Assembly (NCBI RefSeq): GCF_016901815.1
Contig: NZ_JACSNR010000011.1
Location: forward strand, 1 to 64,000
Length of the DNA: 64,000 nucleotides
Direction: 5' to 3'
Source: Hydrogenoanaerobacterium saccharovorans
GTDB lineage: Bacteria > Bacillota > Clostridia > Oscillospirales > Ruminococcaceae
The notes under the pieces: model-generated
Told to the model about the DNA's origin: nothing
Seen by the model: the letters and a program-made list of their open reading frames with translations, nothing else
The model's database searches: none
Position numbers and translations under genes: made by a program
Shown here: in pieces, positions 101 through 48,728 of the stretch
How positions within the stretch are numbered: position 1 is the stretch's first letter
Layout: every line of letters starts with the position of its first letter

Positions 101-110
101 ACACAACAAT

Positions 111-16720: not shown

Positions 16721-18040
16721 TTATGCCACATGGACCGTCATGTAGAGCTTTTCCATGCTGTCATTGGGCTTCAGCGCGCTGGCAACCGCCACATCGCGCT
16801 TTCCAGCGCCCTGGTCGATTTCGATGTCGGCACTCTCAAAGTCGCTGATGGCGCCGATGTCCTGGTACTGATTCCCCAGGCTCACCAGATCGGCCTTGAA
16901 CAGCTGGCGTCCGGTGTCGTTGTTGGTGGCAAGGCCGAGATAGGATGCGCCGAAGATCCGCGCCACATCATTGGCCCAGCCGTCCAGTACACGGATCAGC
17001 CGGTTGGAGGTAAAGTCCGAGGTCTTGCCGCCGGCGAAGGTGGTCAGGCTGTTGATGTCGGTGAGGACACGGGCCTGCTGGTTCTCAGCGTAGAACACAA
17101 ACTCGCCGGCCTTGATGGCTGCCTCGTACTGGCTCTTGGTGTACTTCTCGCTCACATCCACCGCGCCGTCGTAGACAGCATTGGTCAGGCTCTCGTTGAT
17201 CTCCGCTGCCGCCGTAGCGCCGCAGACCCAGGCCACCGCCTTTTCCGGCGGCAGGGTTTCGCCGCTCTCCAGCACCACACCGTTCTTCACATTGATGATG
17301 CCCTCATAATCGGCCTTCTGCCCGGTCAGCACACAGGTGATCTTCTTGCCCTCATCGTCCCGCAGGCGCTTCACAAAGGCCACAAACAGGCCCTTGGTCT
17401 CGCTGTCAGTGCCGGGGTAACAAAGGGTATTGAACTGCTCCACCTCCACGGCGGAGAGGTACTTGGTGTAGGCTGCGCCGTTCGCTGTACCGTTGGTGCC
17501 GCCCTCCAGGGCAGTGGCTACCGCCGCCGAAAGAGAGCCTTCCCCACCAAAGATGACAAAGTCATTGGCAGTCAGCCCGGCGGCCTCGGTCACTGTCTGA
17601 CGGTCCATCTCAGTGGTATCCAGATAGGTCACCACATCGAAACTCCCGTCTGTATTTTCCAGTACCGCCACCTTGAGGGCATTGCCCCGGGTGCCGCTGT
17701 ACCTGGCAGTCACGGTGATACCGCCGATCTCCTTGGCGGCCTTGGAGCCGCCGCCGTCCACCCGGTAGACAAGCAGGGTTTTTGCCCGCTTGAATGCCTC
17801 CCGGATCAGCAGCAGTTCCGGCGCTGTGGCATCGTAGCCGAACACCGTCACCGCCTGTCGGTTAAAGTCGCCGGAGTCCATCTTGATGATGGTGTCCTCG
17901 GCACCCCAGCCCAGCTCCGCCGGGATCGAGGCGATGCCCCGGGAGCCCGCAGAAACGCCGCCGCTTGCGGATACAAAGTTCATGTATACGCCGGGGAGCA
18001 CCTTGTTCTGGAGTGTAAATGTGCCGCCTCCAATAGGCAT
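16721..18040 (-). CDS. Tail sheath protein (XkdK-like)
   Basis: 439 residues with the sheath opening PIGGGTFTLQNKVLPGVYMN and the conserved VTARYSGTRGNALKV segment. The C-terminal domain (GNQYQDIGAISDFESADIEI ... VHVA) is the sheath-to-sheath handshake region. The sheath shows that the phage has a contractile tail. Confidence 0.95.
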   Translation of the reverse strand: MPIGGGTFTLQNKVLPGVYMNFVSASGGVSAGSRGIASIPAELGWGAEDTIIKMDSGDFNRQAVTVFGYDATAPELLLIREAFKRAKTLLVYRVDGGGSKAAKEIGGITVTARYSGTRGNALKVAVLENTDGSFDVVTYLDTTEMDRQTVTEAAGLTANDFVIFGGEGSLSAAVATALEGGTNGTANGAAYTKYLSAVEVEQFNTLCYPGTDSETKGLFVAFVKRLRDDEGKKITCVLTGQKADYEGIINVKNGVVLESGETLPPEKAVAWVCGATAAAEINESLTNAVYDGAVDVSEKYTKSQYEAAIKAGEFVFYAENQQARVLTDINSLTTFAGGKTSDFTSNRLIRVLDGWANDVARIFGASYLGLATNNDTGRQLFKADLVSLGNQYQDIGAISDFESADIEIDQGAGKRDVAVASALKPNDSMEKLYMTVHVA

Positions 18041-19951: not shown

Positions 19952-21163
19952 TCAGCCTCTGGAAATGATGCGGGCAATCGGGATCGCCTTGTGGTCGATG
20001 TACTCCTTGGAAGAGGACGCGCCGTTGTGGACCAGGGTCCAGTTTGCTCCCTTCTCCAGCTCTGCCGCAGTGGGAGACAGCGTTGCCTGGGAGCTGCGGG
20101 TGTAGCTGATGCCATAGGGCGCAAACACCTTGCGCTGGCGGCTGTACAGGGTGTCCTGACCGCCGTTGGTTTTGGGATCGCGGCTCATCTCATAGGGCAC
20201 CTTGGCGCCGATGTTCTCATAGTCAAAGGCACCATCGCCCAGCACATAGGTGATGTACTGCACACCCGGCACCACATAGTTCTCCGCTGTGACGCTGCCG
20301 GTGCCGAAGTACGGAGTGACATCGCTCTTGTTGATCTGACCGTCCGAAGCGCCGGAATCCTTGACCAGCAGGGCACCGGGTTCCTCGGCTGTGGCGGGGT
20401 AATAGCCCTCGGTGGCAGGCATACTGTCATCAATCAGGACGATACGGCCGTTCCAGGTACCGAGGCCCAGGTCACGCTGTACGCCGCTCTCGTCAGTCTG
20501 CTTGAGGTAGGCCAGGAGGTTCAGGTTCTCCAGGTTGGTGGCAACGGTGGAGTGCATCACGACCAGGGTGAACTTGGCCTTGTTGTCGCCGCAGGCCTTC
20601 TGGATGGCACTGTTCAGGGTGGTGCTGCCCGCCATATTGAGAGCGTGACCGTCGCTGTCCTTGCCGGTGGCCAGGGTGATGTCATAGGTGTGGCCGTTTA
20701 CAAACTTGAGGTTCTCGGCGCCGGTCATCGAGAAAATGCCCTTGAGGATCGAAAGCAGGGTGTCCTGATCCACACCGTCCCAGTATTCGGCGACCTGCTG
20801 GGCCACATTGCCCATGAAGTCGGTGCCGCCGGTAATATCGCTGGAGAAGTCCAGCTCGGTCCAGGACTGGGCACGGCCTACCACCACAACGCCGCGCTCA
20901 AAGGTGGTGGTTTTCTGGGCGGTAATGTCGGTCTGGCCGTCGTAGTTGAGCGGGGTGCCGCCGATCCGTCCGGTCATGGGAATGGTGGCGAAGGCGGTGC
21001 CGGTCTGGCTGGAAAATGCCGCCTTGATCTGCTGATTGCCCCGGAGCGCCCGGGACTTGATCAGCTCGTTGCGCTTGGTGGTCGGGATCCGTTCCACATA
21101 GGCGCCGAACGCCACAGGGTTAAACGACTTGCTGTCGAATTTCGACTGGGTGTACTCTGCCAT
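19952..21163 (-). CDS. Major capsid protein
   Basis: 403 residues (MAEYTQSKFDSKSFNPVAFG...). It has the HK97-fold coat pattern of Clostridia phages, with LIKSRALRGNQQIKAAFSSQ and a long central A domain. SD AAAGGAG supports the start. It follows the scaffold gene. Confidence 0.9.
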   Translation of the reverse strand: MAEYTQSKFDSKSFNPVAFGAYVERIPTTKRNELIKSRALRGNQQIKAAFSSQTGTAFATIPMTGRIGGTPLNYDGQTDITAQKTTTFERGVVVVGRAQSWTELDFSSDITGGTDFMGNVAQQVAEYWDGVDQDTLLSILKGIFSMTGAENLKFVNGHTYDITLATGKDSDGHALNMAGSTTLNSAIQKACGDNKAKFTLVVMHSTVATNLENLNLLAYLKQTDESGVQRDLGLGTWNGRIVLIDDSMPATEGYYPATAEEPGALLVKDSGASDGQINKSDVTPYFGTGSVTAENYVVPGVQYITYVLGDGAFDYENIGAKVPYEMSRDPKTNGGQDTLYSRQRKVFAPYGISYTRSSQATLSPTAAELEKGANWTLVHNGASSSKEYIDHKAIPIARIISRG

Positions 21164-22568: not shown

Positions 22569-24272
22569 TCAGTCCTTTCTGAGCAAGATATCCATGACCT
22601 TCCGGGCAGTTTCCCGAGGGCTGCCTCCCATATACTCTGCTACCGCTTCGGCAATAAACTCCCAATCATCGCGCAGCGCATAATAGGACAGATATTGTCC
22701 GGCCTTTTTCATGTTTTCAGCGCTGTCATTCAAACTCCACTGCGTGATACCGCATACTTTCTCAAGTTCATTTCTCAGCGCTGCAATTTGTTTTTGCTTA
22801 GCCGCATTATTTTTTGTAAAAAGCATTTGAACTGCATGCCCCAACTCATGCCGAATTGCGTGTTCAGTTTGATCCGTGCTCCAGAATCCTGCCGCGAAAT
22901 TCTCCTGTGCAGTTTTCAGCATCTTTTCCAGAGAATCCTTCTCCCTCACTTCCCGCATATACACAATCCCGGAACTGGGTTGGTAAGCTGCGTAGAAATT
23001 TTGTTCTTTGGGATAGTACATCACACTTCTCAGGACGCCCTGCTCATGAAGATCCCCAAACACATCATAATATGCGGTGATTTCCCGATTAACAGAGTTC
23101 GCTACATCAAGATCAAAGCGATCATAATCCACATTGTCCAGATGCAGAACAGACAGAGCGTATTCCTTTGCTTCCCGGGCAGAATTTGCGGGAGTGAACT
23201 CCATTTTCAGCTTGATTCTACCATTTTCAGTATTGTCTTTCAATACTTCGGGCGTTTCGATGCCCTGTTCTGCTGCCCACTGGGCATAGGTCATGCGCTC
23301 CGGCATGGGCTGCCCGATGGTCTCCCAGTCCTTCCACTCGTCCGGGTCATATTCCACAGTGGTGGAGCGGCAGTTGGGGTGCATGGGCGGATAGTTGACG
23401 CCTGTCTGCGCATCTCCGATATCAAAGACCTTTCCATCCAGACCGGCACAGACTGCACTGGTCCGGTTGTCCAGGGTGGCGATGAACTCATACTGCCGGA
23501 CGCCGGCGGCCTTGTAGGCGGCTACATCAGCAGCGTTGTGGAAGTGATTCGCTTCGGTACGGATCAGCCGTTCCGCCGTCTTGTAGCTCTGACCCAGCTT
23601 ATCGGACAGCTCCTTGGACAGGGCAGCGACTCCTTTTCCCTGGATCGCCCCCTGGGTCATGATCTCCCGGAGATGGAAAAGCAGCGCCCTTTTGTTCTCC
23701 CACAGTCGGGAGGAAAAATCAGCGCCGCTCCACGGATAGGACAGTGTCTGTTCCACCAGTTCACGGTTGAGATGTGCAAAGTCGAACATCTTTCCGGCGT
23801 GCTGCTGGATATCGAACATCTTGCGGTAATAGCTGTCGGTATAGAGATCCCCGAAGCCTTCCCCCATTCCGTCCTCCAGGTCGATCATCAGGCGGTCTAC
23901 CTCCATATCCACCTGGGCTTTCAGGGCGTCCAGGCGGGTGATCCGGCTGCTGTATGCCCGGGCATCCAGCTCTGCCTTGAGACGGTCCTTGAGGGCCCCA
24001 TCCGGCAAAGCATTGATCTCATCCACATAGGCCCCCAGGGTCTTGGTCCAGGCCTTGGCTTCAGATCCGCGCAGCACTTTCACTGCCTCGGCATAGGAAA
24101 GTCCCTGCTCCGAGGCGTAGCGTCCGTAGAACTCCTCAATCTGACTGCTGATCTCCTGTGCCGCCCTCTTGTAATGGCGGAGCGCCTGCCGGATCAGGGT
24201 CCCCCCCTGTTCAGCGGCCCGCTTTTCCAGTTCCTCGGCCCGCCGAATCCAGTAGTCCTTACTCGGTGCCAT
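22569..24272 (-). CDS. MuF/SPP1 gp7-like head protein fused to a zinc-peptidase-like domain
   Basis: 567 residues. The first ~320 are the MuF head-morphogenesis domain, with LIRTEANHFHNAADVAAYKAAG and the Cys/His pattern CAGLDGKVFD...PPMHPNCRST. The remaining ~230 form an added domain. Its HAIRHELGHAVQ contains the zinc motif HELGH, and EFIAEAVAEYM could supply the third ligand. MuF proteins enter the capsid and can carry C-terminal effectors (polymorphic toxins), so this may be an injected peptidase. Its start overlaps the portal gene by 14 bases. Confidence 0.85.
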   Translation of the reverse strand: MAPSKDYWIRRAEELEKRAAEQGGTLIRQALRHYKRAAQEISSQIEEFYGRYASEQGLSYAEAVKVLRGSEAKAWTKTLGAYVDEINALPDGALKDRLKAELDARAYSSRITRLDALKAQVDMEVDRLMIDLEDGMGEGFGDLYTDSYYRKMFDIQQHAGKMFDFAHLNRELVEQTLSYPWSGADFSSRLWENKRALLFHLREIMTQGAIQGKGVAALSKELSDKLGQSYKTAERLIRTEANHFHNAADVAAYKAAGVRQYEFIATLDNRTSAVCAGLDGKVFDIGDAQTGVNYPPMHPNCRSTTVEYDPDEWKDWETIGQPMPERMTYAQWAAEQGIETPEVLKDNTENGRIKLKMEFTPANSAREAKEYALSVLHLDNVDYDRFDLDVANSVNREITAYYDVFGDLHEQGVLRSVMYYPKEQNFYAAYQPSSGIVYMREVREKDSLEKMLKTAQENFAAGFWSTDQTEHAIRHELGHAVQMLFTKNNAAKQKQIAALRNELEKVCGITQWSLNDSAENMKKAGQYLSYYALRDDWEFIAEAVAEYMGGSPRETARKVMDILLRKD

Positions 24273-25719
24273 TTACACCACCGCCCTGCTGCTGACCGGC
24301 CGCAGTGAAGTCCTCGGCGAACATCTGCGCCCCGAACTCCTCCATCTCCCGGGTCTTTTCGTCCTGGATCCGCTGGAGTTCCTCCTCCACATTGTCCACC
24401 CACGGGTGATTGGCCAGCTGGGTATACCGGCTGATAATACCGTCACTGCCCCGGATATTTGCAATGATATCCGCCTCATTGACCGGCAGATCGGCATTGA
24501 AGGTCACATGGAAGGAGTCCCCGGTGAAATCGCCCTTCCCAGTCAGAGCCAGGGCGGCGTCGATGAACACCTTCATCTGCTCAAAGGTCCCCTGCAGCTC
24601 AGCTCCCAGGGCAGCGCAGTCGGTATCCAGGTCCATATACCGGAAGTTGATGGCCGTGCCGCTGGCATTGCCCAGATCCGGGTCCTTGGTATCCACACCG
24701 CTGCCGTAGTCAAACAGATCCCGGCGGTTCTTATCCAGGAAGGCCATAACCGCATCAATGTTGAGGGTCGGCTCCAGCTTTTCCACGCCGCCGTCCCCCT
24801 CCACCTGGATGGCCAGTGCTTCGTAGAGCTCCCGGGTGAACTGATCAATGTCCTGGCCGCCGTAGTTTTTCAGGATAAAGATGAACTTGGCGATATCACG
24901 CAGCACATCGGCGGTCACCGAGGTCTGCCAGTTCACATCGTCGATCAGCTCCTTAATGAAGTAACACAGGGGCAATTCTTCCTCGTTGTACTTTGTCCAC
25001 ACAATGGGAACCGCGTCCCAGTTGTACGGCTGGCCATTCACTGTGAAGTGAGGGAACTCATTGGTGCCCGGGTCGCTGTCATAGTCCGGCTCCAGGGTGG
25101 AAAGGCTTGGAATCGGATAGGTGGTCTTGTACTTCCGTACTCCCTGTCGGTCCCAGTATTCCACCCGGGTGATGGTCTTTTTGTTCCGCCCGCTATACAC
25201 TACCTGGGGATAGATGCGGATATAGGCGTCCAGCTCGGTGTGCTCGGCGTCCCTCCACAGGGGGATCACCTCGGTGCTGGGCAGCCGCATCCATTTGAGG
25301 GTGCTGTCCTCAAAGTAAGGCGCCAGCCAGGCGATTCCCGACTTGACTGCTCCCTTGCCCAGGCTCTTGATCTTCTGGCGGAAGCGCCCGTCGAACATCT
25401 CGGTCAGGGCGTCAGCATAGGCTTTGTTCTCACTCTCCACCGAAAAAGGCTTGGAGAGCAGATAGTTTGCCTTCTGATCCACCAGCTTTTTGAGGATCGG
25501 GTGCTCGATCTTGGTGTTGCTGCGATTCTTGTATTTGTTCTCCTTGCGCTGCACATCCGAGCGGTTGCGATAATAGTCATCTGCCTGCTTCATGATGTCA
25601 TACTGCGGCGAGATGAGAAAATCATTGATCTCAGCGGCGATGATCTCAGGCAGTGTCATAACAGACCCGGCGCCGCCCTCGATCATCAGCCGGATTTCTT
25701 CACTTCGTGTCAGTTCCAT
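24259..25719 (-). CDS. Portal protein (SPP1 gp6-like)
   Basis: 486 residues with SPP1-portal features: ADDYYRNRSDVQRKENKYKN, HPILKKLVDQKANYLL and the long helical stem before an acidic C-terminus. It forms the ring through which DNA enters the capsid. Sits between terminase and MuF. Confidence 0.9.
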   Translation of the reverse strand: MELTRSEEIRLMIEGGAGSVMTLPEIIAAEINDFLISPQYDIMKQADDYYRNRSDVQRKENKYKNRSNTKIEHPILKKLVDQKANYLLSKPFSVESENKAYADALTEMFDGRFRQKIKSLGKGAVKSGIAWLAPYFEDSTLKWMRLPSTEVIPLWRDAEHTELDAYIRIYPQVVYSGRNKKTITRVEYWDRQGVRKYKTTYPIPSLSTLEPDYDSDPGTNEFPHFTVNGQPYNWDAVPIVWTKYNEEELPLCYFIKELIDDVNWQTSVTADVLRDIAKFIFILKNYGGQDIDQFTRELYEALAIQVEGDGGVEKLEPTLNIDAVMAFLDKNRRDLFDYGSGVDTKDPDLGNASGTAINFRYMDLDTDCAALGAELQGTFEQMKVFIDAALALTGKGDFTGDSFHVTFNADLPVNEADIIANIRGSDGIISRYTQLANHPWVDNVEEELQRIQDEKTREMEEFGAQMFAEDFTAAGQQQGGGVNGTE

Positions 25720-25730: not shown

Positions 25731-26987
25731 CTACTTCATGATTCCGATGGACGGACGCTTCATATCGTCCTCGCAGGCGTACCGCACCGCATCGATATGA
25801 TGGTTGTCCTTATCCGGGTACCCGGCTTTGAAAATGCCCTCCCGGTCCCGCTCCAGCTCATAGCCGGAGAACTCCCGGGCGGTTTCCGGACACCGGGCCG
25901 GGTCAATGATGATCTCCTCCAGATCCTGCAGCCACTTGATGCCATACTCCACACTGTCCGGCCCTTTCCGGGCTCCTACCACCCGCAGGCCATAACCTCT
26001 GACCTCGTCAATGCTCTTGGGCTCGGCGCTATCACAGGTGATCCGGGAATTGCCGGCCTCCGGCTTGATGAGACCGGCTGCTGCCCGGTTGGACAGTCTG
26101 ACCTTGTGGATCTCCCGGAAGAGATACAGCCGGCGGCGGGTCTTGTCGTAGTGGCACACATTGTAGGCAAACGGGTCCGCCGCATAGCCCCAGTCAATGC
26201 CCCGGCGCAGGTTGTCAAAGCGGCTGATCTCCTCATCGGTGATCCTCCGCAGAGTGACATTGTCAAACACTTCGCCGCCGGTGCCGGTGACTTCACCCAG
26301 GTATTCATGGCGGTAGGCCTCCGGCTTCACGGCCTTGAGGTGCTCCGCCTCCACGATGAACTGCTCTCCCAGCCATTCCGGCGGAACAGTCAGATAGGTG
26401 GAGTGATGCACCAGGGTGTCCTCCCGCTCGATGGCAGCATACTGATTGACCCAGTTCCGGGCCGCCTTGGGCGGGTTAAAGGAGTAGAATGCAAAAAAAT
26501 CAGCGCCGCCACGCAGCACTGACTGATTGATGGAGCGGATCTTCTCCGCCCCCTCGAACTCATTGACTTCCTCATACCAGAGGTATTTCGCCCAGCCCAC
26601 CGCAAATTTGATGGACTTGACCTTGGTGGGATCGTCGGCGCCCCGGAAGATGATCCGCTGGCCGGTGGGCAGGTAGGTCCAGGACATGGGGGAAACGCTG
26701 GATTTCCAGAGCTCCGCCACACCCAGGGCGTTGATAGCCCAGCCGATCTGCTCAAACACCGATTCCCGCAGGGTCACACCGTACCGCCGCAGGACGATGG
26801 CATTGGTGTACTGGCCCTTCCCGGCGTCCCGCATCATGCCAAGCGGAATCTCCACCGAGATGAAGGAGGACTTGGTCGATCCTCGACCGCCCTTGAGCCA
26901 GTAGTGGGTGTGCCGGTGCTGCTTAATATCCCGATGGACACCGGCAAAAGTGGGAGCGATGATCTTTGACAGCTTAACCGTCACCAT
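25731..26987 (-). CDS. Terminase large subunit (PBSX/XtmB family)
   Basis: 418 residues. Walker A GGRGSTKSS near 33, Walker B region YLWYEEVNEF near 136, and the nuclease domain with IDWGYAADP and CDSAEPKSIDE. It powers DNA packaging and cuts concatemers. It overlaps the small subunit gene by 14 bases. Confidence 0.95.
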   Translation of the reverse strand: MVTVKLSKIIAPTFAGVHRDIKQHRHTHYWLKGGRGSTKSSFISVEIPLGMMRDAGKGQYTNAIVLRRYGVTLRESVFEQIGWAINALGVAELWKSSVSPMSWTYLPTGQRIIFRGADDPTKVKSIKFAVGWAKYLWYEEVNEFEGAEKIRSINQSVLRGGADFFAFYSFNPPKAARNWVNQYAAIEREDTLVHHSTYLTVPPEWLGEQFIVEAEHLKAVKPEAYRHEYLGEVTGTGGEVFDNVTLRRITDEEISRFDNLRRGIDWGYAADPFAYNVCHYDKTRRRLYLFREIHKVRLSNRAAAGLIKPEAGNSRITCDSAEPKSIDEVRGYGLRVVGARKGPDSVEYGIKWLQDLEEIIIDPARCPETAREFSGYELERDREGIFKAGYPDKDNHHIDAVRYACEDDMKRPSIGIMK

Positions 26988-36112: not shown

Positions 36113-36307
36113 TTATTCGGTCTTTTCCCGGATCAACTCATCCAAAGCGGCGCGAACTTTCTCTTCGGCACCTTTCGGCTCCCGATGTCCGTTCATGATA
36201 GCGCTGAGATACTTGGGGTGGATACCAATTTTCTCGGCAAGCTCCTGAGCGGAGATATCATTCAAATGCATTTCGCCCAAAACTTCTCCTGTCCATTGTG
36301 CAGGCAT
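36113..36307 (-). CDS. Cro-like XRE regulator
   Basis: 64 residues. Helix-turn-helix: ISAQELAEKIGIHPKYLSAI, then MNGHREPKGAEEKV. First gene of the leftward early operon, facing the repressor gene; the classic place for a Cro-type switch protein. Confidence 0.8.
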   Translation of the reverse strand: MPAQWTGEVLGEMHLNDISAQELAEKIGIHPKYLSAIMNGHREPKGAEEKVRAALDELIREKTE

Positions 36308-37407: not shown

Positions 37408-38844
37408 ATGGGTTTGAGAGATATATTCAGAATTGGAGAATTTAAGCAGCAGATCCAGGATCTTACCAATCAGCTTGCCGAACAAAAAGCTCATTTTGAT
37501 GAGATTGGATTTACAGAATATGAGCAAGTACAGGAAGCCTTGAAACAGGCAAACGAGGAGGTTCTGTCCTGCAATACAACCCTTGCAGCTCTGCGAGAAG
37601 AAATTCAGAATCTGGAGAAGCAGGTAGCCCAGAAAGAGGCCAACCTTCGCACCGTTACAAACAAAATCGCCAAAAACAAATCCCTGTATGAGGCGACAAA
37701 GTATGCCATAGACAACTTCTTCAATGATCCTACAGCATTTGATAACTGTAAGATTTCCCCTCAGATGGAAGAGGAACTGGAGCTTGTTCCAACAGTCACC
37801 TTGCACCTGAACTACATGAATGTGGCAGATTTGCGGAAGGCATTCCGGGCAAACGACAAGCAGATTGAATCACTCATGTCCCAGTATGCGGCAAGATACA
37901 CGACCAAAGCCAACAGGTCAATCTATCAGCTCATGGTTATTGCCCTTCGTGCAGAGCTTCAGAACATTTTGTCTGAACTGAAATATGAGAAGCTGGATTC
38001 AAGCATCGAAAAGCTCAAACTCGTTACTTCCAAGTACCTGTCCATTGCCGGCAGCGGAAACCAAAATATTGCCGGAACGCTTACCAAGTTCATCGGTGAA
38101 ATCGAGTATTTGTTTATCAACGCCATTAAGATTGAGTACAACTACTATGTGAAAAAAGAACAGGCCAGACAGGAACAGCTGGCGATCCGTGAACAAATGC
38201 GCCAGGAAGCTGAAGAGCGTAAGGCTCTCGAACTTGAACGAAAGAAAGTTGAAAAAGAGGAAGAAAAGTACAAGGGCGAACTGGACAAGGTACAGACACA
38301 GCTGTCCAATGCTCAGGACGAAACGGAAATTGAAAAGCTCAATGCCCGCATTCTGGAACTGCAGGAACAGCTTGCCAATGTCGTTGTGAAGAAAGATGAA
38401 ATCATCAATCTCCAGAACGGAAAAGCCGGTACAGTTTACATTATCAGCAACCTGGGCAGCTTTGGTGAAAATATATTCAAAATCGGTATGACCCGCAGAC
38501 TTGTCCCGCAGGACCGTGTCAATGAGCTGGGAAATGCCAGCGTGCCTTTCAAGTTCGATGTGCATAGCTTCATCTTCTCCGAAGATGCAGTTTCTTTGGA
38601 AGGGCGGATTCACTCTCTCTTGGATGCGAAGCGTGTAAACAAGGTAAACCGTCGCAAAGAGTTCTTCAATGTCTCTCTTGACGAACTGGAGCAAATTGTT
38701 CTGGATATTGAACCTACTGCTGAGTTTGTTCGCACAATGGCCGCCGAAGAGTATTATCAGTCGCTTTCGTCTGACCAGGTGTATACCGATGAGGAATCCA
38801 CTGATTTTACTGATGATAATGACGAGGATTCCATTGAAGTATAA
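37408..38844 (+). CDS. DUF4041 plus GIY-YIG (T5orf172) protein
   Basis: 478 residues. N-terminal coiled coil (about 10-95), a DUF4041 region, a second long coiled coil (about 250-335), then a GIY-YIG nuclease-like domain starting GTVYIISNLGSFGENIFKIG with RVNELGNASVPF. Ends in a very acidic tail. It is transcribed with the repressor, so it is likely made in the lysogen. A role in exclusion of other phages is plausible but unproven. Confidence 0.75.
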   Translation: MGLRDIFRIGEFKQQIQDLTNQLAEQKAHFDEIGFTEYEQVQEALKQANEEVLSCNTTLAALREEIQNLEKQVAQKEANLRTVTNKIAKNKSLYEATKYAIDNFFNDPTAFDNCKISPQMEEELELVPTVTLHLNYMNVADLRKAFRANDKQIESLMSQYAARYTTKANRSIYQLMVIALRAELQNILSELKYEKLDSSIEKLKLVTSKYLSIAGSGNQNIAGTLTKFIGEIEYLFINAIKIEYNYYVKKEQARQEQLAIREQMRQEAEERKALELERKKVEKEEEKYKGELDKVQTQLSNAQDETEIEKLNARILELQEQLANVVVKKDEIINLQNGKAGTVYIISNLGSFGENIFKIGMTRRLVPQDRVNELGNASVPFKFDVHSFIFSEDAVSLEGRIHSLLDAKRVNKVNRRKEFFNVSLDELEQIVLDIEPTAEFVRTMAAEEYYQSLSSDQVYTDEESTDFTDDNDEDSIEV

Positions 38845-38919: not shown

Positions 38920-40167
38920 TTACTCTTGCGCCAAACACTGCAACAGCTGGTCCAATTGATTGAGATCCAGGCGGTAATGCTTTTCTCTGCCGACCTGTTC
39001 CCGAATCAAAAGCTTTCCATCCTGCAGTTCGCTCAGCCGATTTAGCTGTTTCATCAGAGTAGATACAGAATACTCACAGGCTTCCGCCAGCTCCTGCCGA
39101 TTGATGCCATCTTCGGAAAACAGACTGACCTGAATTAAAATGAACAGGCAGTCCCTCAGGTTTTCGTCCCAATCGGCAAAGGACTCCTGCGCCTCCTGAA
39201 GTCTTTTATGATAGTGGTTCATTCGGGCAGCGCGGCGTTCCAGCGCCTCATAAAGGCCCTGCATAGCCTGCGTGATGATATTGGTAAACATCAGCAGAAA
39301 AGGCGTAACATCTCCCCTGCTGCGGGGGTTATTGCAAATCCGAAAGGCCTCTTCATAGATCTTTCGGTTTTGAAAAATAGGGTAGGAAATGCGATATGCC
39401 ACAATTGGATGAAACTCCCGAGCCAAAAGATAGCTGCTGATGAAACGGCTCATCCGGCCATTCCCGTCGTAAAATGGGTGAATGTACCCAAACAGATAGT
39501 GAAACAGCCCGATGGCCAGCACCGGGTTGAGCTGGGGGTCTTTCAGCACAGCCAATGCTTCCCGCATTGCCTGGATGATCTGCTCCTCTGGATAAAGCCC
39601 CCTATGGATTTCCCGGTCAAAACTGTCTGTAACGCTGACACTCTCCTTTCGAAACAAAGTGCCATCCGGCAGGTTTTCCGGTTCGATCTCACTTTTTCCC
39701 TCCAGCAGCAGTTCATCATATAAATGCCGGATATCTTCAGGGGTTTCCAGCGGTATTTCTTTTCGGGTCATCAGCATACGGTATTTACTTACAATACCGT
39801 CAAACCGCTTTTGCGCTCTCTGTTTCTGCCGCAGATTCTCAAGCGATTCCCTTACTTCCCGCCTGCTGCTTGATACCCCTTCAAACTGGTTGGTGATCAC
39901 AATTTCCCCAATCAAACTGTGCAGTGTGAAGTTTTGGATCGCCATTTTCGGCAAGCCAAAGTACAGCAGATGGATTTTCTGATCCAGCCGATGCAGTTCA
40001 ATGATCGACTGGTACAATTCCGGAAGCTGCAGGAAAAAGACTGGATACTCCCCGATCTGAAACGGAATGTGGTAGGAGGAAAAGGGATTTTCTCTGCGTC
40101 TGCGCCATTCTTCCTCATATTCGTCTGGGGACTGATAGTATACCTTTGTCAATGGAATATAACTCAT
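38920..40167 (-). CDS. Fic-family protein (probable AMP transferase)
   Basis: About 415 residues. Fic motif HPFYDGNGR begins near residue 230. Upstream (near 92) the sequence TNQFEG fits the (S/T)xxxE(G/N) inhibitory helix, so this is a self-inhibited class II Fic. The C-terminus (about 340-415) is winged-helix-like (EDGINRQELAEACEYSVSTL). Fic proteins move AMP onto Tyr/Ser/Thr of targets. The start is chosen at 40167, after GAGG; longer forms reach 40269. Lies between the lysogeny genes and the integrase as cargo. Confidence 0.85.
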   Translation of the reverse strand: MSYIPLTKVYYQSPDEYEEEWRRRRENPFSSYHIPFQIGEYPVFFLQLPELYQSIIELHRLDQKIHLLYFGLPKMAIQNFTLHSLIGEIVITNQFEGVSSSRREVRESLENLRQKQRAQKRFDGIVSKYRMLMTRKEIPLETPEDIRHLYDELLLEGKSEIEPENLPDGTLFRKESVSVTDSFDREIHRGLYPEEQIIQAMREALAVLKDPQLNPVLAIGLFHYLFGYIHPFYDGNGRMSRFISSYLLAREFHPIVAYRISYPIFQNRKIYEEAFRICNNPRSRGDVTPFLLMFTNIITQAMQGLYEALERRAARMNHYHKRLQEAQESFADWDENLRDCLFILIQVSLFSEDGINRQELAEACEYSVSTLMKQLNRLSELQDGKLLIREQVGREKHYRLDLNQLDQLLQCLAQE

Positions 40168-40282
40168 AGGATCAACCTCAGCTTCTATCATGTAAAATTC
40201 AGAATTTTTAACTCTTCTTTTTATTATAGTATCATTAAGTGTGTAAAAATACAACATTTTGCACATCAATGAAAATTCAGTT

Positions 40283-40311
40283 TTGATTTATACGCAAAAA
40301 AGCAATATATT
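40283..40311 (+). promoter_or_regulatory. Integrase promoter
   Basis: -35 TTGATT, 17-base spacer, -10 TATATT, followed by the AAAGGAG SD and the integrase ATG at 40342. Confidence 0.6.
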
Positions 40312-40341
40312 ACACTTCTTTTTACAGAAAGGAGCTTATCC

Positions 40342-41865
40342 ATGCCCTACTGTATGTATCTGCGCAAGTCCCGGAAGGACAGCGAAAACCCCAGTTTCAC
40401 CGATGAGGAGATCCTCTCCCGGCACCAGCAGCTCCTGGAGGAGACTGCCGAGCGGCAGGGGCTTCGGGTAACTGCCATCTATCGGGAGATCGTCTCCGGC
40501 GACAGCATTGCCGGGCGCCCGGTGATGCAGCGCCTGCTCCGGGAAGTGAGCGCCGGACAATGGGACGGCGTCCTGGTGGTGGAGATCGAGCGTCTGGCCC
40601 GCGGCGACACCGAGGATCAGGGTGCGGTCGCCAAGGCATTCCAGTACAGCGGCACCAAGATTGTCACTCCCTTGAAAACTTATGACCCGGGCGATGAATT
40701 CGATGAGGAGTACTTTGAGTTCGGGCTGTATATGTCCCGCCGGGAGCTCAAGACCATCAACCGCCGTCTGGTTCGAGGGCGTCAGGCCTCGGCCAAACAG
40801 GGAAAGTATGTGGGCAGTGTGGCTCCCTTCGGCTATGAAAAGGCGCCTCTCACCGGACAGAAGGGCTTCACCCTGATCCCCAGCCCGGATGCCGCCGTGG
40901 TGCAGCTCATCTTCCGGCTGTTTCTCAGCTCGGCGAAAATGGGTACCGGTGACACCGCCACCCAGCTCAACCAGATGGGCTACCGCACCCGGCAGGGACA
41001 TTACTGGTCCGGCTCCACCGTCTGCAAGGTGCTCACCAACCCGGTCTACATGGGCAAGATCAAGATGGGATACCGCCCCAAGATCAAAACCTATGAGGAC
41101 GGCGTCCAGAAGGTGCTGCGCCCGGTGCGGAAGTTCGGGGAATACACCCTGATCGACGGCCTGCATGAGCCGCTGGTGAGCGAGGAGGTCTGGCAGAAGG
41201 CGGCGGACAAACTCCATGCCTCCACCCTATCCCGGACCGTGTCCAGCCGGACTCCCCAGAACCCCTTTTCCGGGCTGCTCAAGTGCGCTGTGTGCGGATA
41301 CGGCATGAAGCGTCAGCAGAACAGCCGGGGCGGGATTGTCTACTGCACAACGCCGAACTGCTCCTGCAAGGCCAGCGATGTGACCGAAGTGGAAGCGCTG
41401 CTGATGCAGGCACTGCGGGAGATCGTGGACAGCTTTGAGGAGGAATACCCCCAGCTTGAAACGCTGGCTGATGAGGCCGCAGCGCACCGCAAGAAGCTGG
41501 AACACACCCGGCAGGAAATCAGCCGGCTGGAAAAGCAGCTGGGAAACCTCTTTGACCTGTTGGAACAGGGAATCTACGACCGGGAGACCTTCGTCAGTCG
41601 GCGGCAGCGCCTGGAAGAGCAGCTGGACGATCTGCGCCAGGGCGAACAGGCAACCCAGGAGGAACTCACCGCCGCCGAGCAGAACCAGCGGCGCATGGCA
41701 GAGATGATCCCCAGGATCCAGGAGGTCATTGACGGGTATGGGCTGCTCCAGTCAGTGGTGGAAAAGAACCTGATGCTCAAATCCATCCTCAGCCGCATCG
41801 ACTATGACAAGACCGAGCGAAATGTCCCTCCCCGCCTCCATCTGACCCTGCGGTTTGACGGGTGA
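40342..41865 (+). CDS. Large serine recombinase (phage integrase)
   Basis: 507 residues. Catalytic Ser10 in YLRKSRKD; resolvase domain to about 150 with EIERLARGDTEDQGAV; recombinase domain to about 290; a Cys motif (CAVCGYGM ... CTTPNCSC) in a zinc-ribbon domain; and a coiled coil (ETLADEAAAHRKKLEHTRQE) with C-terminal arm. It inserts and excises the phage at att sites. Its stop codon lies about 30-40 bases from the junction with the YaaH-like gene. Confidence 0.95.
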   Translation: MPYCMYLRKSRKDSENPSFTDEEILSRHQQLLEETAERQGLRVTAIYREIVSGDSIAGRPVMQRLLREVSAGQWDGVLVVEIERLARGDTEDQGAVAKAFQYSGTKIVTPLKTYDPGDEFDEEYFEFGLYMSRRELKTINRRLVRGRQASAKQGKYVGSVAPFGYEKAPLTGQKGFTLIPSPDAAVVQLIFRLFLSSAKMGTGDTATQLNQMGYRTRQGHYWSGSTVCKVLTNPVYMGKIKMGYRPKIKTYEDGVQKVLRPVRKFGEYTLIDGLHEPLVSEEVWQKAADKLHASTLSRTVSSRTPQNPFSGLLKCAVCGYGMKRQQNSRGGIVYCTTPNCSCKASDVTEVEALLMQALREIVDSFEEEYPQLETLADEAAAHRKKLEHTRQEISRLEKQLGNLFDLLEQGIYDRETFVSRRQRLEEQLDDLRQGEQATQEELTAAEQNQRRMAEMIPRIQEVIDGYGLLQSVVEKNLMLKSILSRIDYDKTERNVPPRLHLTLRFDG

Positions 41866-41912
41866 TTTTTTATGGGGTCAGTTTCATAGATAATCGGACT
41901 TATGAATGGGGA
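41866..41912. other. Right attachment junction (attR) region
   Basis: Phage DNA after the integrase runs into a reading frame that becomes YaaH-like at RTYEWGYRYGEPQAVAP (from about 41895). The crossover core cannot be fixed without attL or an empty site. Confidence 0.55.
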
Positions 41913-42347
41913 TATCGGTACGGTGAGCCTCAGGCGGTGGCTCCCTACAACCAGGTGCGCCGGGTGCTCCAGTATGCCGTGACCGAGATCCCCGCCGGCA
42001 AGATCCTCATGGGCATTCCCAACTACGGCTATGACTGGGTTATCGGCTCCTACTCTCCCGCCACCGTGGTTTCCAATGTGGGCGCCATCAACATCGCTGT
42101 GCAGAACAACGCCCAGATCTTCTTTGATGAAACTTCCAAAACCCCCTACTTCAACTACCGGGATGACTCCGGACGCCGGCATGAGGTCTGGTTCGAGGAC
42201 GCCCGCAGCATTCAGGCCAAGATGGATCTGGTGCGGGAATTTGAACTGGCAGGGGTCAGCTTCTGGCACATCGGCACCTACTTCGCCCAGGCCTGGGAAG
42301 TGCTCACTGCCAACTTCCTGGTCAACAAGATCCGCTCGCCCCGCTAA
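41895..42347 (+). pseudogene. yaaH: 3' part of a YaaH/SleL-like GH18 spore enzyme gene, cut by the prophage
   Basis: About 150 residues matching the C-terminal part of LysM-GH18 spore-germination glycosidases: TYEWGYRYGEPQAVAPYNQV, ILMGIPNYGYDW and the ending GVSFWHIGTYFAQAW. The N-terminal LysM domains and the catalytic DxxDxE region are missing. A GTG at 41862 could start a short peptide, but the enzyme is not complete. YaaH/SleL enzymes break down cortex fragments in spore germination. Confidence 0.7.
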
Positions 42348-42647
42348 TCACTCCAGACGGCAGCGGTCCATCCTGACCCGGTAGCGCTCCAGCAGTGCTG
42401 CCGGAAGGTCGTCCAATCCGTGCAGGGATACTCCGCTCAGCAGGCAGCGTCCATACACTTTTCGGCTGCCGATCAGACGATTGGGCCGCTGTCCACGCTG
42501 ATCCCGGAGCATCACCAGCAATATCCCGCTCTCAAAGGGCGCTGTGATCTCCGCCGGGCCGCCCAGAATCCGTTCCAGCTGTGCCGGGTCGGATGGGATC
42601 TCCTCCACCCGGGCATCCTGCCCCGGTTCCAGCATCAGTACCCGCAT
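42348..42647 (-). CDS. DUF3846-like protein
   Basis: 99 residues beginning MRVLMLEPGQDARVEEIPSD, as in DUF3846 proteins found in phages, plasmids and Clostridia genomes. Convergent with the yaaH remnant. Function unknown. Confidence 0.6.
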   Translation of the reverse strand: MRVLMLEPGQDARVEEIPSDPAQLERILGGPAEITAPFESGILLVMLRDQRGQRPNRLIGSRKVYGRCLLSGVSLHGLDDLPAALLERYRVRMDRCRLE

Positions 42648-42727
42648 GTTCCTGTCCCCTCTCTGCCGTCCGGCAGTCTTTGGGGATAGTCTGTTCCAAA
42701 TCCCTGTGCCTATACCGTTTGAGAAAA

Positions 42728-42765
42728 AAATCCCCGGCTCCGCATCGGAAACCGGGGATTTTTAT
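42728..42765 (-). terminator. Terminator of the MATE gene
   Basis: AAATCCCCGG and CCGGGGATTT arms, with A/T runs on both sides. Confidence 0.8.
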
Positions 42766-42766
42766 T

Positions 42767-44125
42767 TTATCCCAGCACCGGATCTTTCTTCCGGAGCTTA
42801 TTATAGAACAGAAGGGCCGCACCCGCTGCTATGGATTCAGCCAGAATAAAGCTGGCCCAGATTCCGGTCAGGCCGAACGGGCCGCTGAGGATGGCAGCTG
42901 CCGGGAGGGTGATCACCAGCTGGCGCAGCAGAAAGACGATGAGCGAATAGCCGCCCTGTCCCATGGCCTGGAACATGGTAGGCAGGATAAAGCCGATGGC
43001 TGCGGGCAGGAAGGATACCGAGATGATCCGCAGAGCCGGAACGCCGATGGCGAGCATCTCCTCCGAGGCGTCAAACAGGCCGAGCAGCCACTCGGGCGCT
43101 GCCATGAACAGCACACAGCCCACTGCCATGATCACAAAGCAGACCCGCAGGCTGATGCTCAGAGTATGCTGCAGGCGCTTGCCGTTGCCGGCGCCATAGC
43201 TGAAGCCCATGATGGGCATGGCGCCCTGGGTCAGGCCGCTGGCGGGCATGAATACGAAGGTCTGGAGCTTATAATAGATGCCGAACAGCGACACCGCTGT
43301 GTTGGAGAAGCCGATGAGGATGGTATTGAGCCCCATTACCAGCACGCTGCCCAGAGCATTCATGCAGGAATTGGGAATGCCGATGGAGGCAATATCCCGG
43401 ATCATCTTCCATCTGAAATGGAAGTTCCGAAGATCCAGCCGCACCGCAAACTTGCCCAGCAGGAACACCAGCAGAGAAGCCAGCATGGCGGTGTGCTGTC
43501 CGATCACAGTCGCCACGGCTGCGCCCTTGACTCCCATGGCAGGGAAGCCGAACAGGCCGAAGATCATAATGGGATCGAGAATGATGTTGGTGATGGCTCC
43601 CAGTGCCTGGAGCAGCATGGGGAAGATCATCGAACCGGTGGACTGGAACACCTTCTCAATGCAGATGTGGATAAAGGAACCGGCACAGAAGATCAGGCAG
43701 ATATTGGTGTAGGTGATGGCATCTGCCAGGATTGCCGGATCATCGCTGAACAGCCGGAAGAAGGGTTCCAGCAGGAACTGTCCCGCGATGATGAACAGAA
43801 CTGCCACAAAAGCTGCCATAAGAAGCCCATGGGCTACCGCGCTGTCTGCGCCCTCCTGGTCCTCCCGGCCCAGGCTGCGGGAGATATAGGAATTGACTCC
43901 CACACCAATACCCACTGAACAGGCCACAATCAGGGTCTGTACCGGGAAGGCCAGAGAAACTGCAGTCAGGGCATCTTCTCCGATTTTTGCCACGAACATA
44001 CTGTCCACAATGTTGTAAAGGGACTGAATCAGCATGGAGATCATTGGCGGGATCGCCATGGACATGAGCAGCGGGAATACCGGCCGCACTGCCATTTTGT
44101 TTTCTTCACGAAGGGAAACGCTCAT
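42767..44125 (-). CDS. MATE-family efflux transporter
   Basis: About 452 residues with twelve predicted membrane segments in two similar halves; FPLLMSMAIPPMISMLIQSL and NSYISRSLGRE are typical. MATE proteins export drugs or metabolites using Na+ or H+ gradients. ATG at 44125 has AAAGGAG upstream. A terminator-like hairpin sits in the leader. Confidence 0.9.
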   Translation of the reverse strand: MSVSLREENKMAVRPVFPLLMSMAIPPMISMLIQSLYNIVDSMFVAKIGEDALTAVSLAFPVQTLIVACSVGIGVGVNSYISRSLGREDQEGADSAVAHGLLMAAFVAVLFIIAGQFLLEPFFRLFSDDPAILADAITYTNICLIFCAGSFIHICIEKVFQSTGSMIFPMLLQALGAITNIILDPIMIFGLFGFPAMGVKGAAVATVIGQHTAMLASLLVFLLGKFAVRLDLRNFHFRWKMIRDIASIGIPNSCMNALGSVLVMGLNTILIGFSNTAVSLFGIYYKLQTFVFMPASGLTQGAMPIMGFSYGAGNGKRLQHTLSISLRVCFVIMAVGCVLFMAAPEWLLGLFDASEEMLAIGVPALRIISVSFLPAAIGFILPTMFQAMGQGGYSLIVFLLRQLVITLPAAAILSGPFGLTGIWASFILAESIAAGAALLFYNKLRKKDPVLG

Positions 44126-44303: not shown

Positions 44304-47300
44304 TCAGAAGAAGGACATCTGACTGCTCTCAGGCAGATTGCCCAGTGCGCCGGCCTGCCGCAGCAGATCCACCACCGACTTGGAAATCTTTGCACGGGAA
44401 ACCACCTCGTCTGCCGAGAGGAATTCCCCTTCCGCCGCTGCTTCCATGATGTTGCGGGCAGCGTTTTCACCCAGTCCCTTGAGGGCTGTGAAGGGCAGAC
44501 GGATCTTGCCGTCCTCACAGCGGTACTTGGTGGCGTGGGACTTGTAGAGATCCACCGGCAGGAATTCATAACCCCGTGCCATCATCTCACACATGATCTG
44601 CAGCACAGTGAACTGATCGTCCTCCTTGGTGGTACGCTCATTGCCCAGCTTCTTGAGCTCCTGCATCCGCAAGCGTGCGGTGGAAAGTCCCCGCACAGCC
44701 GCTTCGGCATCAATATCGCCGCCGCGGATGGTGAAGTAGGTGGCATAGTATTCCAGCGGGCGGTGGAGCTTGTACCAGCCCAGCCGGATCGCCGCAATTA
44801 CATACGCCGCCGCATGCGCCTTCGGGAACATATACTTGATCTTCTTACAGCTTTCGATGTACCAATCCGGAACACCATGCTCCTTCATGGCTGTGATATG
44901 CTCCTCGGTGAGCTGGGTGGCAGCCTTACCCTTTCGGGTGATCTCCATGATCTTGAAGGCCATGGACGGCTCCAGTCCCTTGCCCAGCAGATAAGTCATA
45001 ATGCTGTCACGGGTACCGATTACATTGGAAATGGTACAGGTGCCCTCCTTGATGAGCTCCTGGGCATTGCCGGTCCATACATCGGTACCATGGGACAGTC
45101 CCGAAATCTGCAGCAGGTCGGAGAAGGTCTTGGGCTGGGATTCAATGAGAATCTGACGCACAAAGTTGGTGCCCATCTCCGGCAGGGACAGCGTACCGGT
45201 ATTGCAGTCGATCTCCTCCTCGGTGACGCCCAGCGCCGCCGGGGACGTGAACAGGCTGTATACCGCCTCATCACTGGTATCCACCTCCATTACCGGAATG
45301 CCGGTCATATCCTCCAGATGCTTATAGAAGGTGGGCACATCGTGTCCGAGAATATCCAGTTTGAGGATGGTATCATGGAGGGAATGGAAGTCGAAGTGGG
45401 TGGTGACGATGTCCGAATCCGGGTCATCCGCCGGATGCTGCACCGGAGTGAAATCGTAGACCTCGTAGTCATTGGGCACAACAACCATGCCGCCCGGATG
45501 CTGACCGGTGGTGCGCTTGACACCGGTACAGCCCAGAGTCAGGCGCTGTTCTTCATAGCGGTTCACATGGAGCCCCCGCTCCTCATTGTAGCGGCGCACA
45601 TAGCCAAAAGCTGTCTTTTCCGCCACAGTGGAGATGGTTCCCGCCTTGAACACATGGGAGGAACCGAACAGCTCCTCGGTATATTTATGGGCCTGGGACT
45701 GATATTCACCCGAGAAGTTCAGGTCGATATCCGGCTGTTTGTCGCCGTTGAAGCCCAGGAAGGTTTCAAAGGGGATATTGTGACCATCCCGGTTCATGGG
45801 AGTGCCGCAGTGCGGACAGTTCTTGGGGGGCAGGTCAAAGCCCGACTGCACCGAACCATCGGTGAAGAACTCACTGTGCTTGCAGTTGGGGCAGACATAG
45901 TGGGGCATCAGCGGATTGACCTCCGAAATACCCGCCATGGTCGCCACAAAGGAGGAGCCTACACTGCCTCGGGAGCCGACATGGTAGCCATTGGATTCCG
46001 ACTTGAACACCAGCTTCTGGGCAATGATGTAGAGCACCGCGAAACCGTGCTTGATAATGGAGGTGAGCTCCCGATCCAGGCGGTCCCGGACAATATCCGG
46101 CACCGGATCACCATAGATTTCCTTGGCCTTTTCCCAGGTGATGCGCTGGAGTTCCTCCTCCGAGCCCTCAATATACGGCGTATAGGTGCCATCGGGGATG
46201 GGCTTGATCTTTTCGATGCTGTCGGCGATCTTGTTGGTGTTTTCCACCACCACTTCATAGGCCTTTTCCTCGCCGAGATAGGAGAACTCCTCCAGCATCT
46301 CATCGGTGGTCTTGAAGTAGAGCGGCGCCTGCTCCGAGGCGTCCTTGAAGCCCTGGCCTGCCATGAGGATCTCCCGGAACTTGGCGTCCTCCGGCTCCAG
46401 GAAGTGGACATCGCCGGTGGCAACCACCGGTTTATGGAGCTTCTCGCCGATCTTGACAATGGTGCGGTTCATATCCCGCAGCTGCTCCACCGAATTGACC
46501 GAGCCATTGCGGTAGAGAAACATATTGTTCCCGATGGGCTGGATCTCCAGGTAGTCATAGTCCTTGGCGATCTCACACAGCTCGTTGAAGCTCTTGCCGT
46601 CCACAATCCCTCGGAACAGCTCGCCCGATTCACAGGCAGAGCCCAGCAGCAGTCCCTCCCGGTGCTTAAAGATCTCACTCTTGGGCATCCGGGGACGCTT
46701 GTAGAAGTAATTGAGATGGGACATGGAGATGAGCTTGTAGAGATTCTTGAGGCCGGTGAGGTTCTGCACCAGGATACAGATGTGGTAGGACGGCAGTTTC
46801 TTGACATCCACCACGGTAATGCCGGTATTGATCTGGTCCACTGCCATGATCTGCTTTTCCTCCTGCATGATCTTGGCTTCCGCCAGGAAGATCCCCGCCA
46901 GGGTGCGGGCATCGTCACAGGCCCGGTGGTGATGGAAATCCGCCAGTTTCAGATGCTTGGCAATGGTGTCCAGCTTGTGATTCTTGAGGTTGGGGAACAG
47001 CGCCCGGGAGATGGGCACTGTATCCACATAGGTATACTGCAGCTTGATCCCGTGCCGGGCTGCCGCCGCCTTGAGGAAGGAGGAGTCAAAGGGGGCATTG
47101 TGCGCCACCAGGACAGCATCCTCCCGCCCGATGAAGTCCATGAACATCCGCAGGGCTTCCTCTTCCAGAGGAGCATCCGCCACCATCTCATCGGTGATGC
47201 TGGTGAGCTTGACCACCTCATCGGGGATGCGCTTCTCAGGATTGACGAAGGTGTCAAATTCCTCCAGCACTTCCCCGTTCTTCACCCGGACCGCGCCGAT

Positions 47301-48728
47301 TTCGGTCATGCGCTCCAGACCGGCAGAAAGGCCGGTGGTCTCCAGGTCGAAGATGATGAACTCGCCGTCAAAGGCCTCCTTGGATTTCCCCACCACAGCG
47401 GGCACCATATCATTGACCAGATAGCCCTCCACGCCGTAGAGGATCTTCATCTCCTTGCCCGACTTTTCCACCGCCTTCTGGGCATTCATGGCATCGGGAT
47501 AGGCCTGGGCCACGCCATGGTCGGTGATGGCAACGGCGGTATGACCGAAATAGGCCGCCCGCTGCACCAGCTTGTCCGCCGGGGTCATGCCGTCCATCGA
47601 GGACATATTGGTATGCAGATGCAGTTCCACCCGCTTTTTCTCGCTGGTATCCTGCCGGTATGTACGCTTCACCAACGCAATGGAATCAGGACGCAGCAGC
47701 AGTTCCTTTTCAAAGGTGTCCAACATGACCTTGCCGCTGGTGAGAATGGTCTTGCCTGGCTTGAGGGTATCATCGATCAGATGCGCCTTCTCCGCCGACA
47801 CGATGGTCTTGAGGGCAAAGGAGTTGGTATAATCGGTGAACAGGATCTTGTAGATCACCTTGGTTTCGTCCCGGGTGACATGCTTGTCAGTCTGGAACAC
47901 ATCGCCCCAGACTGTCACCTGGATCTCCTCCTCCATGGCGTCGGACAGCGGAATGGGACGCTCCCCAATGGGCTTGCCCATGATGACCGTCATTTCGTCC
48001 GCCTGGAAGGGCAGCCCCGAGGCGTCAAACCGGATGGGCGCCGCCTTGGGCTCGTCCAGCAGACGGCTGTCGCTCCGGCGTCCGCCGCCCGAACGGTTCC
48101 AGCCGCCGTTGCCATTGCCGCCTCCGTTCCAGCCTCCATTGCCGCCGTTCTGGGCAGGGGCCGGACGGGAAGGCGCCGGTGCAGCCGGGCGGGGCGGAGC
48201 CTTGGGAATGGCTGCTTCCGCCGCCTCCATGGTCTTGCGGTAGATCTCCTGATTGGACTCCAGATCCAGCACGCCGGTGAACTCCACTGTGATCTGCCGC
48301 CCGAACTCCTGTTCCAGGATCTCGGAGATCACCCGGGCACAGTTCTCCCGCTCGAGCCACTCATAGCCGCCATGGGCCAGGGAGATGGTGAGATGGTCGT
48401 CTGCCAGCTCAGCGGTGGCGCCGTCAAAGAAGCCGTTGATATGCTTGCCTGCCGCCCGGAGGGTATCTGCCAGGCTGGGCAGATAGGCCACGGTGAGCTG
48501 ATCTGCCGGATACCGGGGCAGAAGCAGCACCCGTCCCAGCTGCAGCGCAGTCCGGAGCTGGGCCTGCACCTGCAGCAGCACCGATTTTTCCAGTACATTG
48601 GCAAAGCGCAGCTGAGCCGTCAGCTCCCTGCGCTGGGTGTGAATATGAAGATGCTCGATCTCACCGGCAGCCACCGCCGCCGGGAGATCAGGCAGATAGG
48701 TTCCAAATACATCGCTGAATGTTTTCAA
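44304..48728 (-). CDS. polC: DNA polymerase III, PolC type
   Basis: 1474 residues, full length. In order: N-terminal and OB regions with a Gly/Asn-rich linker (about 180-230), a PHP domain starting VELHLHTNMSSMDG near 363 that is split by the DEDD exonuclease (FIIFDLETTGLSAG near 457), a zinc-binding part (CPNCKHS ... CPHCGTPM), and the polymerase core with PDIDLNFSGEYQ near 1000. PolC is the main replicative polymerase of low-GC Gram-positives. Last gene of the pyrH-polC series. Confidence 0.97.
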   Translation of the reverse strand: MKTFSDVFGTYLPDLPAAVAAGEIEHLHIHTQRRELTAQLRFANVLEKSVLLQVQAQLRTALQLGRVLLLPRYPADQLTVAYLPSLADTLRAAGKHINGFFDGATAELADDHLTISLAHGGYEWLERENCARVISEILEQEFGRQITVEFTGVLDLESNQEIYRKTMEAAEAAIPKAPPRPAAPAPSRPAPAQNGGNGGWNGGGNGNGGWNRSGGGRRSDSRLLDEPKAAPIRFDASGLPFQADEMTVIMGKPIGERPIPLSDAMEEEIQVTVWGDVFQTDKHVTRDETKVIYKILFTDYTNSFALKTIVSAEKAHLIDDTLKPGKTILTSGKVMLDTFEKELLLRPDSIALVKRTYRQDTSEKKRVELHLHTNMSSMDGMTPADKLVQRAAYFGHTAVAITDHGVAQAYPDAMNAQKAVEKSGKEMKILYGVEGYLVNDMVPAVVGKSKEAFDGEFIIFDLETTGLSAGLERMTEIGAVRVKNGEVLEEFDTFVNPEKRIPDEVVKLTSITDEMVADAPLEEEALRMFMDFIGREDAVLVAHNAPFDSSFLKAAAARHGIKLQYTYVDTVPISRALFPNLKNHKLDTIAKHLKLADFHHHRACDDARTLAGIFLAEAKIMQEEKQIMAVDQINTGITVVDVKKLPSYHICILVQNLTGLKNLYKLISMSHLNYFYKRPRMPKSEIFKHREGLLLGSACESGELFRGIVDGKSFNELCEIAKDYDYLEIQPIGNNMFLYRNGSVNSVEQLRDMNRTIVKIGEKLHKPVVATGDVHFLEPEDAKFREILMAGQGFKDASEQAPLYFKTTDEMLEEFSYLGEEKAYEVVVENTNKIADSIEKIKPIPDGTYTPYIEGSEEELQRITWEKAKEIYGDPVPDIVRDRLDRELTSIIKHGFAVLYIIAQKLVFKSESNGYHVGSRGSVGSSFVATMAGISEVNPLMPHYVCPNCKHSEFFTDGSVQSGFDLPPKNCPHCGTPMNRDGHNIPFETFLGFNGDKQPDIDLNFSGEYQSQAHKYTEELFGSSHVFKAGTISTVAEKTAFGYVRRYNEERGLHVNRYEEQRLTLGCTGVKRTTGQHPGGMVVVPNDYEVYDFTPVQHPADDPDSDIVTTHFDFHSLHDTILKLDILGHDVPTFYKHLEDMTGIPVMEVDTSDEAVYSLFTSPAALGVTEEEIDCNTGTLSLPEMGTNFVRQILIESQPKTFSDLLQISGLSHGTDVWTGNAQELIKEGTCTISNVIGTRDSIMTYLLGKGLEPSMAFKIMEITRKGKAATQLTEEHITAMKEHGVPDWYIESCKKIKYMFPKAHAAAYVIAAIRLGWYKLHRPLEYYATYFTIRGGDIDAEAAVRGLSTARLRMQELKKLGNERTTKEDDQFTVLQIMCEMMARGYEFLPVDLYKSHATKYRCEDGKIRLPFTALKGLGENAARNIMEAAAEGEFLSADEVVSRAKISKSVVDLLRQAGALGNLPESSQMSFF

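Follow-up and report, generated by a model that had tools for sequence, protein, structure and literature searches.

The window analysed here, a 64-kb stretch of DNA that corresponds to contig C3 of the genome from its base 1 and has no assembled sequence to its left, carries a prophage that has almost certainly been inserted into a protein-coding gene. The gene appears to be of the YaaH/SleL type, and this family identity, together with the listing of yaaH, cotJC and spoIVB as sporulation genes (and of yaaH among the spore coat genes) in PMC3533761, suggests that the element sits inside a sporulation gene. We propose that a complete temperate phage with a contractile tail used the large serine integrase it encodes to enter the MTYEWGY codons of this gene, so that the N-terminal half would stop at a phage-derived TAA and the C-terminal half would lack a start. 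Precise excision between attL and attR would restore the gene in frame. The break is most likely cheap while cells grow, and excision once they sporulate (probably in the mother cell, with a directionality factor, RDF, as the trigger) would rebuild the gene, while the spore lineage would retain the phage DNA, as it does for skin and SPbeta. Taken as a whole, insertion followed by sporulation-time excision seems to us slightly more probable than not; regulated excision as such is about an even matter.

The integrase gene (40342-41865, plus strand; 507 aa) has the complete Pfam domain set of a large serine recombinase, i.e., Resolvase, Recombinase and zinc-ribbon (Zn_ribbon_recom) domains. Its 3' end lies ~30 bp ahead of a headless GH18 coding part, listed as an ORF at 41862-42347 (plus strand). 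As this frame aligns to positions 208-315 of the 317-position GH18 profile only, the first two thirds of the domain are missing, and the statement of the sequence-only reading that the frame starts in mid-protein after the integrase was borne out. The 11-bp attR core, GACTTATGAAT (41897-41907, plus strand), occurs once in the 64-kb window and opens the C-terminal part of the LysM2-GH18 gene (41897-42347, plus strand); phage genes, the three recombinase domains and a core that follows the integrase agree with the prophage, large serine integrase and attR order described in that reading. The N-terminal half, for which a search had been suggested, was located elsewhere in the same genome, on contig C10 (3,597 bp) at 2600-3472, where it ends in ...ITLMTYE followed by TAA at the same core as attR (the attL twin, GACTTATGAAT, C10:3460-3470). 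The two halves are in frame across the core and, joined on paper, give an open YaaH/SleL-type protein of 436 residues, which is 84% identical to the intact orthologue of a congener (G002) over 429 aa without gaps. The DNA of the empty site, obtained by joining the flanks, likewise aligned to G002 over 600 of 600 bp with no gap (79% identity), and the attP rebuilt from the attR left arm, the core and the attL right arm forms a dyad that was reached by none of 200 shuffles. On paper, excision would restore the reading frame exactly, as had been claimed from the sequence. The intact gene of G002 reads through the junction between genes for an acetyltransferase and PolC (names read from sequence), and the same neighbours flank the split halves, the acetyltransferase gene on C10 and that for PolC at 44304-48728 in the window, with a DUF3846 gene and a MATE gene between the C-terminal half and the latter. 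An intact yaaH without a match to the junction had been named as evidence against the insertion; the intact gene of G002 does match it.

The intact orthologue of G002 finds its best solved relatives in 4s3j ('Cortical-lytic enzyme'; E 3e-93) and 4s3k ('Spore germination protein YaaH'; E 6e-86), both over query positions 18-439 of 444, in line with the YaaH-like family named earlier. From this match, the split gene is predicted to encode a YaaH/SleL-type protein with two LysM repeats and a GH18 domain that acts in cortex hydrolysis, the two LysM repeats probably forming the N-terminus on C10. The host genome carries SpoIVA and two sigma-K/E-like genes (best 297.8 bits against a cut-off of 298.65). 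MTYEWGY, in which the insertion lies, comprises seven consecutive invariant residues and is the longest invariant run among 15 intact proteins.

The prophage body (1-41907) has its structural genes on the minus strand and the integrase on the plus strand. PHROG matches were obtained for the terminase (25731-26987), portal (24259-25719), scaffold, major head (19952-21163), sheath (16721-18040), tape measure (13652-15568), baseplate (10058-11140), tail fibre (8488-9531) and endolysin (6140-6784), and these genes mark the element, which is at least 41.9 kb long, as a contractile-tailed prophage. No near relative of its 14.5-kb structural region was found among 50,697 phage records. Between the phage genes and the integrase lie a T5orf172-domain gene (37408-38844) and, next to the integrase, a Fic/DOC-domain gene (38920-40269, minus strand; Pfam PF02661), both likely cargo. 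A THF riboswitch was noticed on the same contig to the right of the window (L033:2335-2442).

Repeats occupy both sides of the assembly gap between the two halves. In C10, only 19 bp separate the core from a repeat present at four contig ends (those of C10, C5, C7 and C3). Contig C3 starts with another repeat, the end of a repeated IS200-like element (1-115, minus strand), which is present at or near four contig ends (C3:1, C1:1, the end of C13, and C34). In C34 this second repeat runs into a transposase-like frame, and there is a match to Rfam STnc490; we take both to be related to IS200. A single copy of the IS would probably bridge the gap from C10 to C3. We also considered that C10, which ends 127 bases past the core, might stop at a k-mer branch left by excision, and dropped the idea, since these bases are mostly the repeat of other contig ends.

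The same gene was found to be split in relatives. With the intact protein as a query against the 394 genomes of the order (E<=1e-25; states assigned by reading the table and the junctions), only 117 genomes gave a match, so the gene appears to be dispensable in many genomes. It reads through in 102 of these, ends at a contig break in three (exactly at the motif in G170 and G269, elsewhere in G078) and is split at the motif in twelve, namely G000 (the genome of the window), G040, G071, G072, G196, G228, G283, G304, G316, G350, G392 and G413, with G350 and G072 counted as split. The C-terminal half was located in ten of the twelve, that of G350 through the integrase search only; none was found for G040 (a genome 55% complete) or for the near-complete G072, in which the N-terminal half (L146) stops at the motif. 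Two further genomes, G001 and G025, are split according to a search of 61 genomes. The best 80 named loci comprise 72 intact genes, seven split ones, all from MAG or uncultured records, and one contig break of the same length and end as that in G170. The junctions lie at two neighbouring positions, Y-E-W and Y-T-Y-G. G350, with its attR at a later NYGYDW motif and its two junctions at different motifs, is no simple case. In G269, two contigs (L140 and L141) share exactly 127 bp from the second landing spot onwards, a pattern that a sample with both occupied and empty sites could give. G228 was tried as a similar case and set aside, as it has no second contig with its end. Part of the N-terminal half also stands beside an integrase in two IMG/VR contigs (L257 and L261).

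The elements in yaaH, phage or non-phage, range from 1.9 to >40 kb. The smaller ones measure 1.9 kb (L217), 3.9 kb (G283), 4.9 kb (L220), 5.5 kb (G304, with transport-like genes), 6.4 kb (G392), 9.7 kb (G316, with a different recombinase) and 20 kb (G071), gene functions in the small elements being read from sequence. With its recombinase broken by stops, the 1.9-kb element (L217:5580-7490) is to all appearances a trapped relic, and the insertions in L217, G350 and G072 would not be mended by one clean excision. In a midpoint-rooted tree of 50 integrases, those sited in yaaH occupy at least five places. The integrase of G001 is sister to that of the window, yet it stands at the attL end. As the phage of G001 is partly related to that of the window and has its integrase at the opposite end, the genus has probably seen two separate insertion events.

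No internal stop was found in any split half tested, except for one in the N-terminal match of G001 before the compared region. Pairwise codon fits gave dN/dS values for the N- and C-terminal halves of 0.063 and 0.045 between G000 and G002, 0.087 and 0.055 between G001 and G002, and 0.159 and 0.050 between G000 and G001, and of 0.015-0.040 among three split g134 species. The medians were 0.075 and 0.051 for split-intact pairs versus 0.076 and 0.042 for intact-intact pairs, several other pairs being saturated in dS. Decay is absent from these codon data, but they say nothing of function while the gene is split. The element ends of G413 and G228 are 97.5% identical over 121 bp, whereas their host gene is 90% identical; as the elements are more alike than the gene that holds them, recent transfer is suggested, and the low dN/dS may predate the split. 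Alternatively, a single insertion in the genus g134 may have been inherited vertically, as the integrase dS of 0.96 between G413 and G196, close to that of yaaH (0.76-0.84), would suggest; the elements are otherwise mosaic, and the ends in G413 and G228 are too similar for such a history. We leave this point undecided, and thus do not take dN/dS as proof.

A search for related integrases (E<=1e-60) yielded 59 in 48 of the 394 genomes, and all 59 loci were examined. The gene fragments beside the integrase 3' end belong to cotJC-like genes (10), yaaH (8), spoIVB (5) and asnB (2) in 25 of the 59; 22 adjoin one uncharacterised gene of ~300 aa and 12 are without an assigned target, with the reservation that these counts are not independent events, have no null and include a few self matches, the references coming from these loci. 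The integrases in spoIVB (L101, L102, L109, L112 and L288) lie at GAVTHV-like codons just upstream of spo0A, one being called by a direct match and four from the neighbouring spo0A and a SpoIVB-like C-terminal peptide recognised by eye; four of them (L288 is absent from the tree) form a clade next to the window integrase. As spoIVB is expressed in the forespore of B. subtilis, these targets fit poorly with excision confined to the mother cell. asnB counts as a sporulation gene through B. subtilis asnO only. The cotJC-like sites, in manganese catalase genes, are L103, L106, L107, L114, L119, L123, L127, L129, L290 and L301. The uncharacterised protein (EAVCVHTKKVYD motif; sites L289, L299, L312, L313 and 18 other loci) had no significant Pfam or NCBIfam match. 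Its gene is present in 35 of 61 relatives, counting the genome of the window itself (C1:120674-121021); in G044 and G054 its coordinates place it no more than ~10 kb from spoIVA. In G037 (contig C2), two integrases 10 kb apart (L309 and L310) flank pieces of this same gene, as nested or tandem elements. It is tempting to suppose, at a little under even probability, that the integrase family has specialised in this order on spore-development genes, with clades at yaaH/sleL, cotJC-like genes, spoIVB, asnB and the uncharacterised gene, where phages and non-phage islands would be harboured and the genes repaired by development.

Signals that could govern excision were sought as well. With the one consensus used, no sigma-E-like site was found upstream of any split gene; two of 40 genes matched, both intact. 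A consensus scan placed a sigma-70-type promoter-like site, TTGATT-17-TATATT, upstream of the integrase (40283-40311, plus strand), the scan of 40100-42800 giving 3 sites versus 1.1 expected. Such a promoter is no objection to developmental excision, because the skin element of C. difficile pairs a constitutively expressed integrase with an RDF of the mother cell (PMC5025042). The shared small ORFs held no convincing RDF candidate, many matches being shadow frames of the integrase. A 64-aa protein (36113-36307, minus strand), 57% identical to one in the element of G001, looks HTH/Cro-like by eye and is at most a weak candidate for a regulator or RDF. The attP pattern of the excised element had no match in viral contigs.

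The observations can be explained in other ways. Plain insertion would mean that the phage uses conserved DNA in a dispensable or redundant gene, that lysogens live without the enzyme and that excision occurs only on phage induction. Conserved coding sites are often common to several large serine recombinases (one prolyl isomerase site is used by 33 integrases; PMC10083194), and the gene match in only 117 of the 394 genomes, the lack of a mother-cell promoter by the consensus used and the seemingly unrepaired cases of L217, G350 and G072 all suit this explanation. Nevertheless, a neutral choice of site does not predict that 25 of 59 related integrases lie at yaaH, cotJC-like genes, spoIVB and asnB, and the halves are open and conserved, albeit the insertion may be recent; plain insertion is in our view a serious contender, but a distinctly less probable one. 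Excision in the mother cell is favoured because the insertion recurs, the halves stay open and related integrases lie at spore genes, while the sigma-E-like promoter, RDF and excised form sought in vain, together with the relics, count against developmental excision.

Lysogeny might instead act as a reversible switch of sporulation or germination that helps the phage, with spores that are altered or germinate slowly unless the phage leaves and with excision tied to induction rather than to development. The yin element in yabG of C. botulinum occurred within one culture in integrated as well as in excised form and went with an earlier start of sporulation (PMC10747680), and the 127-bp overlap in G269 is what a mixed population would give, but G269 has no third contig in support of mixed sites and G228 no second one; we regard such a switch as improbable. 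That the halves are unrelated assembly fragments or pieces of a decaying gene, as their position on different contigs and the repeats at both flanks of the gap might suggest, is contradicted by the shared core, the dyad, the in-frame join that matches a congener and the adjacent integrase, and is scarcely credible.

Insertion with excision during sporulation would make the element a variant of the known intervening elements of sporulation genes (skin/SPbeta type), with a role proposed by analogy with theirs. SPbeta in spsM of B. subtilis is likewise a full prophage in a spore gene that excision would rebuild (PMC4191935), and its integrase, of the same broad large serine recombinase family, is 27% identical to that of the window; gene, host class and phage differ, and excision, RDF and timing are here only proposed. 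skin, a serine recombinase element that splits sigK in B. subtilis and C. difficile, has entered this one gene independently at different positions (PMC5025042), but sigK encodes a sigma factor whereas the target here encodes a cortex enzyme, and RDF/sigma-E control was not found here. gin in gerE and yin in yabG bring non-phage or phage-like cargo into spore genes (PMC5595907 and PMC10747680), as do the elements with non-phage cargo in yaaH of the relatives; their excision has been demonstrated, while our system is known from sequence alone. The prophage phi027 of C. difficile lies beside a CotJC-like gene, a kind of gene also targeted by the related integrases; this gene is not yaaH, and it is adjacent to or downstream of the prophage (PMC11222575 and PMC12122855). 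Elements of this kind almost all reside in mother-cell genes, and the small ones have mostly ceased to be functional prophages (PMC6957869). The insertions in spoIVB would depart from this rule. The open-licence literature yielded no paper on yaaH with a prophage, on spoIVB as a prophage integration site or on the present yaaH insertion system, and for SleL a single genome paper; what is new here is a target gene with two adjacent landing spots common to phage and non-phage cargo.

Split genes of this kind would otherwise be taken for pseudogenes when genomes are surveyed. Were excision developmental, the repair of genomes in sporulating cells would be common in little-studied anaerobic Clostridia, beyond a few model strains, the landing spot shared by phages and non-phage islands would be explained, and germination would depend on a phage-borne recombinase. 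Developmental excision would also suggest that the uncharacterised target gene has a role in spores, and if the integrase family is genuinely specialised on spore-development genes, this ~300-aa target would be a spore gene too.
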